Assembly (NCBI RefSeq): GCF_003402975.1 | Contig: NZ_QURB01000002.1 | Location: 360,101 to 424,100, forward strand | DNA length: 64,000 nt | Source of the DNA: Brumimicrobium aurantiacum | Lineage (GTDB): Bacteria; Bacteroidota; Bacteroidia; Flavobacteriales_D; Crocinitomicaceae | Direction: 5' to 3' | Shown here: positions 12,145 through 13,791 of the stretch, in pieces | Layout: the number at the start of each line of letters is the position of its first letter | How positions within the stretch are numbered: position 1 is the first letter of the stretch | Notes under the pieces: model-generated | The model's input: only the letters and a program-made list of their open reading frames with translations | Databases searched by the model: none | Told to the model about the DNA's origin: nothing | Translations under genes and position numbers: made by a program

Positions 12145-12152
12145 TATCTTTG
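12145..12152 (+). promoter_or_regulatory. -7 element of pyrG, followed by a C tract
   Basis: TATCTTTG is an exact consensus match. It is followed directly by CCCCCCG (12153-12159), so the predicted start at 12157 falls in the C run. No TTG is seen at the -33 distance. Confidence 0.6.
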
Positions 12153-12180
12153 CCCCCCGTAGTTACAAATCTTTTATAAA

Positions 12181-13791
12181 ATGTCTAATTCAACGAAATA
12201 TATCTTTGTAACTGGTGGGGTTGCATCCTCATTAGGGAAAGGAATTATAGCGGCTTCATTGGCCAAGCTTCTTCAAGCACGCGGTTACTCAACAACAATT
12301 CAAAAACTTGATCCTTATATCAATATCGATCCAGGAACTTTAAATCCTTATGAACATGGGGAATGTTATGTTACTGATGACGGTGCTGAAACAGATCTTG
12401 ATTTAGGACATTATGAACGTTTTTTGAATGTTACCACTTCACAAGCAAACAATGTCACAACTGGTAGAATTTATCAATCAGTAATCAACAAAGAAAGACG
12501 TGGTGAATATTTAGGGAAAACAGTTCAAGTTATTCCTCATATCACTAACGAAATTAAAGCCAACATTCAAAGTTTAGGTAAAAATGGTGATTACGACATC
12601 ATTATTACAGAAATCGGAGGAACAGTTGGTGATATTGAGTCTTTACCTTATGTTGAAGCCTTAAGACAAATGCGTTGGGAGTTTGCAGATGATTGTATCG
12701 TGATTCACCTAACATTGGTTCCATTCCTTCAAGCAGCTGGTGAGTTAAAAACAAAGCCTACACAACATGCTGTAAAACAACTGTTAGAATTAGGTGTTCA
12801 ACCTGACATTCTTTGTTGTAGAACTGAACATGAATTAGATCTTGATTTACGTAAGAAAATTGCACGCTTTTGTAATGTTGTACCAGAAGCTGTTATCGAA
12901 GCTATGGATGCACCTACAATTTACGATGTTCCGTTAATGATGCAAGAAGAAGAATTGGATGAAGTTGTATTAAAACAATTGAATTTATCTCGTAAATCAA
13001 AGCCAAATCTTGATTCTTGGCATTCTTTCCTAAACAATTTAAAAAATCCTACTTCTGAAGTAACGATTGGTATTGTTGGAAAATATGTTGAGTTAAAAGA
13101 TTCGTATAAATCAATCAGCGAAGCATTTATTCACGGAGGGACTGCTAACTTGTGTAAAGTGAATATTGAGTGGATTCACTCTGAAAAATTAACGAAAGCA
13201 AATACAGCAGAATTCTTAGGTAAATTAGATGGTGTACTTGTTGCTCCAGGATTTGGATCAAGAGGTATTACTGGTAAAATCAATGCCGTTCACTATGCAA
13301 GAGAAAACAACTTACCTTTCTTAGGAATTTGTTTAGGAATGCAATGTGCTGTTATTGAATTTGCACGTAACGTTATTGGTTGGGAAGATGCTCATACTGC
13401 TGAAATTTCTCCAGATTCAAAACGTCCAGTGATCAGCTTGATGGAAGAGCAAAAGAATATTTCAGATATGGGAGGAACAATGCGTTTGGGACAATACAAA
13501 TGTGAGTTAAAAGCCAATTCTAAAATATATGATGCTTACAATACAGAAGTAATTAACGAGCGTCACCGTCATAGATTTGAATTCAATAGTGACTATTTAG
13601 AAGAGTTTGAAAAGAATGGTTTAAAAGCAACAGGAATCAATCCAGTTACGGGTCTTGTTGAAGTTGTTGAAGCTGATAATCATCCTTGGTTTGTTGGTGT
13701 TCAATTCCATCCTGAATATAAAAGTACGGTAGACAATCCTCATCCCCTATTCAAAAGCTTTGTTAAAGCGGTGATGGATAACAAAAAGTAA
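12181..13791 (+). CDS. pyrG: CTP synthase
   Basis: PyrG converts UTP to CTP with ATP and glutamine, the last step of pyrimidine nucleotide synthesis. The 536-residue protein has the expected two domains. The amidoligase domain (1 to about 270) opens with [13 protein letters not shown] and includes [11 protein letters not shown]. The glutamine amidotransferase domain (about 290-536) has the nucleophile C384 in GICLGMQ and the H510/E512 pair in VQFHPEYK. Length matches the E. coli enzyme (545). It has its own promoter with a C tract at the predicted start, and yidC follows 41 bases later, probably on the same transcript. Confidence 0.97.

Follow-up and report, generated by a model that had tools for sequence, protein, structure and literature searches.

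A conserved C-led 5′ end of pyrG transcripts in Bacteroidia as a candidate CTP-sensitive start switch

The pyrG gene of the window (the whole stretch of DNA analysed, 64,000 nt) encodes a CTP synthase of 536 aa (12181–13791, + strand; identified by NCBIfam). The genes ispH and that for the SRP RNA lie upstream, and yidC lies downstream. Reading positions 12145–12159 confirmed the arrangement described by an earlier, sequence-only reading: TATCTTTG (12145–12152), a −7 promoter box of the form TAnnTTTG; a run of six C residues (12153–12158), the predicted start zone; a G (12159); and then the pyrG leader, this G standing 22 nt before the ATG at 12181. Folding points to three further elements, likewise on the + strand: TAGTTACAAA (12160–12169), a 5′ arm conserved in the family and predicted to pair with pyrG codons 9–12; its 3′ arm, TTTGTAACTG (12205–12214), comprising codons F9, V10, and T11 plus the first base of G12; and the GGG of codon G13 (12217–12219), the predicted partner of CCC when 25 nt of leader are folded with 45 nt of coding sequence.

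A strong hairpin (11921–11957) with a 13-bp stem and a T-rich stretch after it (−20.6 kcal/mol in a fold of 11905–11965) lies in the region that separates the SRP RNA gene from the pyrG promoter; it is possibly a terminator or a small RNA. The only Rfam match in the window is the SRP RNA, with no family at the pyrG leader; among 20 further leader loci the sole match is a tRNA (in L132), again with no leader family. A known RNA family was therefore rejected as the identity of the leader at these loci.

The six-C tract alone is unremarkable: CCCCCC occurs once in the window (3.55 expected) and TANNTTTGNNNCCC once (0.47 expected), counts within chance for a single window. The C tract is notable instead because it is conserved at one set spacing from the −7 box and absent at other promoters. 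Promoters of related organisms indicate where transcription would begin. The −7 box of F. psychrophilum spans −12 to −5 (PMC9723704), which would place +1 at the fifth nucleotide after the G of the box. This is the fifth C of the run and the second of its conserved core, the last three C residues (12156–12158, nucleotides 4–6 after the box). The motif of B. thetaiotaomicron is centred on −7 (PMC7366714), which also allows the fourth nucleotide, the first conserved C. The sequence-only reading had arrived at the fifth C by using the ffs promoter as a ruler; the F. psychrophilum spacing favors that position, but the ruler itself is imprecise because the Rfam SRP match begins at 11555, within the ffs −7 box. 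Transcription starts in B. thetaiotaomicron are 45% A and 41% G (PMC7366714). Against that background, a conserved start at C would be uncommon, and the purine that follows CCC would make a natural second start. We infer that pyrG transcripts start within CCC-purine, with the G at 12159 as the proposed alternative start at low CTP.

Loci of pyrG for comparison came from 80 named Bacteroidota contigs, from 60 genomes of the family (the 30 closest were read), and from 197 genomes of the class. The class genomes gave the leaders of 108 further loci, which are not a random sample: 28 are closest matches, and 80 were picked by hand, mostly one per genus. From 216 leaders with a located start, 192 of them carrying TAnnTTTG near it, 210 had a usable −7 box; those dropped for want of a box were L033, L048, L069, L176, L180, and L197. 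No start was found in L065, L080, L305, and L310. The extra-locus set excluded three leaders lacking a TAnnTT(T/C)G box: L325 and L326, which read TTTA, and L319, which is truncated at a contig end. All three show CCCGTA. The same genome appears twice in at least two cases (L002 = L092, L016 = L118). Deduplicated sets were used for the leader-coding swap tests, the ACG tables, the within-family swaps, the leader-stem counts, and the refolds with 60–120 nt of coding sequence; the remaining counts, 127/210 for example, retain duplicates. Where several boxes were present, the one followed by CCC was taken (extra-locus, within-family, leader-stem, and long-fold analyses).

These leaders share the pattern TAnnTTTG-N3-CCC-purine. 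CCC occupies nucleotides 4–6 after the box in 127 of the 210 usable Bacteroidia leaders, and in 114 of the 192 with a strict TAnnTTTG box (49/94 in the class sample alone). The first CCC-purine begins exactly at nucleotide 4 in 114/192; no other single position accounts for more than 5, and 64 leaders have none. The base that follows is G in 116 CCC leaders and A in 11, hence a purine in 127/127; both a C and a purine would be available as starts within the start zone of every one. The comparison with related genomes that the sequence-only reading suggested thus found CCC-purine kept at fixed spacing, with the length of the C run free to vary. Among the 49 families sampled, 26 have CCC in at least one leader and 20 in every leader read. 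The family survey, which read the closest 30 of 60 genomes and counted the window among them, found CCC[GA][TA]AGTTAC in 30/30 leaders; two leaders from named Crocinitomicaceae (L004, L037) have CCC without the AGTTAC type. CCC is present in the leaders of Pedobacter (L054), Mucilaginibacter (L049), and Lishizhenia tianjinensis (L002), for example. The C start would not be universal, since 83/210 usable leaders lack CCC at nucleotides 4–6; three Flavobacterium leaders (L043, L075, L078) are without it. GGG stands at the start position in 0/210. Outside the class, TAnnTTTG-N3-CCC was seen in 0/18 readable leaders of other Bacteroidota classes (80 nt shown, judged by eye); L307 reads TATCTTTA-ATC-CCCA, and L296 reads CCCCGTAC, without a TAnnTTTG box. 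We consider it very probable that the pyrG 5′ element itself is real.

The element is also specific. Forty 20-kb stretches, together with the window, supplied a background set of 104 intergenic TAnnTTTG promoters, pyrG included; CCC occupies nucleotides 4–6 in none of the 103 others. TTTGNNNCCCGTA occurs twice in the whole source genome, at pyrG and inside an unrelated ORF. A pattern search of the 197 genomes gave matches in 144, and one locus was read in each of 30. Thirteen of these sites are intergenic, four of them at pyrG; the other nine (eight with CCCATA) lie before different ORFs in five cases and before no ORF in four.

The C-led 5′ end is predicted to be paired. Across the first six transcript nucleotides, the mean paired probability is 0.66 for pyrG (class sample, n = 91) versus 0.28 for other promoters (n = 103; p = 2.5e-9), and it exceeds 0.7 in 67% of the 91 class leaders versus 8% of the 103 promoters. 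Two partners are predicted: an arm of a leader hairpin, or the P-loop codons F-V-T-G-G of pyrG itself. Predicted coding-paired examples are the window family (CCC...GUUACAAA with UUUGUAAC...GGG), L145 (CCCGUAAC with GUUACGGG), L175 (CCCGUUAC with GUAACGGG), L183 (CCCGGUUA with UAACCGGG), and L347 (CCCG-UA-CAGUAAC with GUUACUG-GCGGG). Predicted leader-arm examples are L147 (CCCGUAUU with AAUACGGG), L154 (CCAUAUAG with CUAUAUGG), and L157 (CCGUAA with UUACGG). The first C falls outside the stem in 15 of 22 leaders whose leader stem has at least 6 pairs.

Leaving out CCC mimics a start at the purine. The resulting loss of folding energy averages 4.84 kcal/mol (n = 127) and reaches at least 3 kcal/mol in 84%; in the controls it is 1.09 when the coding start comes from a non-CCC genome, and 0.47 at background promoters. 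For 100 distinct CCC genomes the loss is 5.4 kcal/mol, versus 2.9 when coding sequences are swapped. With 60–120 nt of coding sequence (108 distinct loci) it is 3.3–3.8 versus 1.7–2.2 in swapped controls, and the share losing at least 3 kcal/mol goes from 82% at 45 nt to 57–65% with longer coding sequence. The median loss is at least 3 kcal/mol in 22 of the 26 CCC families, and smaller in f22, f40, f54, and f59. In the window, CCC pairing belongs to the minimum free energy structure with 45 nt of coding sequence and is lost from that of 12156–12260; for its relative L084, leaving out CCC costs no more than 0.9–3.0 kcal/mol at 60–120 nt.

Synonymous codons also bear on the coding partner. Because residues V10, T11, G12, and G13 hardly vary, the third bases of their codons can reveal selection. 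With the family type set aside, 31 of 43 distinct CCCGTA leaders go with ACG at T11, versus 8 of 78 non-CCC leaders (p = 4.5e-12); among later Thr codons of the full-length genes, ACG makes up 93/599 (16%) in the CCCGTA group and 170/1403 (12%) in the non-CCC group. V10 is GTA in 12/12 distinct leaders of the window family type versus 33/78 non-CCC leaders (47/47 versus 36/83 before deduplication). Among distinct CCCGT leaders, T11 is ACG in 32/42 without a leader stem (10 of the 42 therefore lack it) versus 3/15 with one (p = 3.5e-4), which indicates that the codon is free where the leader supplies the partner. Leader base 6 is able to pair with the third base of V10 in 40 of the 44 CCCGT leaders whose T11 is ACG (A-U 37, U-A 2, G-U 1).

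Exchanging coding sequences between leaders leads to the same place. Matched leader-coding pairs average −9.94 kcal/mol versus −8.15 when swapped (80 CCC leaders), a difference reached in 0/2000 permutations; non-CCC leaders show no such match (1901/2000), and the effect in the window type alone is weak (13/2000). Swaps were also made within families, leaving out repeats, leaders longer than 130 nt, and non-CCC leaders (in f1, types other than AGTTAC as well). The match persists in f28 (0/5000) and f12 (6/5000), and weakly in f1 (121/5000); no effect was seen in f39, which has no variation, or in f37 (1582/5000). Within one genus, L313, L315, and L316 combine CCCG with GGC at G12, versus CCCA with GGT in L311: these sequences show one compensating exchange of a predicted G-C for an A-U pair. 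(Two of the six members of this genus, L312 and L314, are without CCC.) In f28, leader base 6 is A with V10 GTT (L174, L218, L317, L318, L320) or U with V10 GTA (L175, L321–L324); in this register, L311 and L313 depart from the rule by combining A with GTA. The 0/103 at other promoters, the swap tests, and the fold losses at background promoters led us to reject chance or general promoter composition as an explanation. Folds, swaps, and codon co-variation together indicate that the 5′-terminal C residues form part of a conserved RNA stem.

Other arrangements occur at pyrG. Leaders without CCC (L018, L022, L025, L026, L132, L178, L192, and similar ones) often have other 5′-terminal hairpins, for example GCGTTTATAAGCGC, or ACAGTTT..AAACTGT close before the ATG. 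Leaders of f20 and f35 (L119, L123, L181, L182, L211) start with GACC, AACC, or GGCC and have GGTC or GGTT downstream; judged by eye, these arms seem to co-vary, and are possibly a separate design. In f12, some predicted 5′ hairpins lie about 55–70 nt before the AUG. Two long leaders, L336 and L340, have a 5′ hairpin plus another segment, TTTTGGTGT, whose complement is found in the codons ACACCAAAA after the ATG; with this second predicted hairpin, they may form a two-hairpin switch.

We propose, with a probability of about 0.5, that pyrG of Bacteroidia is governed by a pyrC-like, cis-acting CTP start switch at the 5′ end of its transcript. The −7 box would set the transcription start inside CCC-purine. 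With ample CTP, RNA polymerase would start with C, and the resulting 5′ CCCGUA... end would pair downstream: with a leader hairpin arm in some lineages, and with codons V10-T11-G12-G13 in others, the window included. In the coding-paired type, the translation start would then be enclosed in a closed loop, lowering pyrG expression. With scarce CTP, transcription would start two or three bases further along, at the G or A, with GTP or ATP; the purine-start transcript would lack the C pairs, the stem would weaken, and CTP synthase would be made. CTP-sensitive initiation, which the sequence-only reading had tied to the C tract, is well motivated, because the predicted C start and its purine neighbor are conserved in many Bacteroidia and absent from the 103 other promoters; the length of the tract is the part of that proposal that did not carry over.

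The fixed position of CCC-purine, its absence at the other sampled promoters, and the co-variation of its pairing can be read from sequence; beyond these, we infer the start sites, the dependence on CTP, and translation as the controlled step. Enclosure of the AUG would be the control step in the coding-paired type, and it is the weak point of the mechanism; the f12 hairpins that lie well before the AUG count against it too. Although the AUG lies inside the closed loop in folds of the coding-paired type, the predicted unpaired probability around it is 0.61 for the C start and 0.60 for the G start; of the 125 leaders compared, 14 have a lower value with C and 17 a higher one. Local occlusion of the AUG is thus not supported, because accessibility is the same for both starts. 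A more sweeping reading falls just short of even odds: an ancient CTP sensor across many families, without protein or binding pocket, in which the first nucleotide would decide whether the transcript folds onto its own P-loop codons, and synonymous codons would be selected as a regulatory arm.

The C run at the predicted start also invites a slippage mechanism, in which high CTP would cause repeated C addition on the GGG template, yielding abortive poly-C transcripts or surplus C residues at the 5′ end that would reinforce the P-loop pairing. Slippage at starts is common in nucleotide genes of Streptococcus agalactiae, pyrG included (PMC4448216). The run in the 127 CCC leaders is, however, three C residues in 72, four in 48, five in 1, and six in 6; selection therefore does not preserve a long tract for slippage. 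The six-C tract was accordingly rejected as the conserved feature; only CCC-purine is kept across leaders. The invariant purine is moreover better explained by a second start site, and slippage appears unlikely as the basis of control.

No more probable is a constitutive 5′-terminal stem that protects the mRNA or determines how efficiently it is translated, without sensing CTP, with C residues present since the P-loop codons are G-rich. The partner GGNGGN is indeed fixed by the protein, AUG accessibility is unaffected by the start, and non-CCC leaders also have 5′ stems above background (at least 5 pairs in 17/38 of the class sample versus 11/79 background promoters; leaders of at most 45 nt). 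Against this, CCC is locked to the −7 box, and CCC-purine is kept even with a leader-arm partner, which could just as well be C against a 5′ G (the GGG start found in 0/210). That the stem binds a small RNA or a protein, be it a regulator or CTP synthase itself, is very improbable: from family to family the stem differs widely in sequence, partner, and loop length, unlike a protein site, and the leaders of the window and 20 loci match no Rfam family.

The start switch, as the preferred reading, resembles several known systems in part. The E. coli pyrBI, codBA, and upp genes are controlled through UTP slippage at U tracts in the initially transcribed region. Bacteroidia pyrG likewise has a homopolymer of the product nucleotide near the start, but with short C tracts and a co-varying RNA stem. 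In Bacillus subtilis, pyrG is controlled by CTP-sensitive reiterative transcription, and the transcript starts with GGG. The gene, the product CTP, and a 5′-terminal homotrimer that pairs downstream are common to this attenuation (PMC4448216) and the Bacteroidia leaders. The latter differ in having GGG in 0/210, and no terminator-like site was found at 12100–12300 of the window, the one stretch scanned for it.

The closest parallel is pyrC (and pyrD) of E. coli and Salmonella, in which the C-initiated 5′ end enters a hairpin that the G-initiated transcript does not fully form. When the product nucleotide is high, a C start gives a closed stem and low expression; when it is low, a purine start leaves the stem open. 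Wilson (1992), Sorensen (1993), and Liu (1994), cited in PMC5730371, bear by their titles on this nucleotide-sensitive start-site selection. As in pyrC and pyrD, the start zone of Bacteroidia pyrG is C residues followed by a purine, and the C-led end is predicted to lie in a stem. Our literature search, with subscription papers mostly outside its scope, turned up no account of pyrG being controlled by CTP in Bacteroidota. The working principle is already known; what appears new, within that search, is the phylum, the combination of this gene with such a design, and the recruitment of catalytic-motif codons as the partner arm. A conserved C start with a co-varying stem amounts to a directly testable candidate CTP sensor in a dominant phylum and, if the proposal is true, pairing with the first nucleotides of the transcript would fix the choice of synonymous codons in a catalytic motif. 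Unlike pyrC and pyrD, the system would involve pyrG, a Bacteroidetes −7 box, and often a partner in the gene's own P-loop codons rather than in the leader; and, whereas the classical device acts on the Shine-Dalgarno sequence, Bacteroidetes have none for such a stem to cover (PMC7366714).
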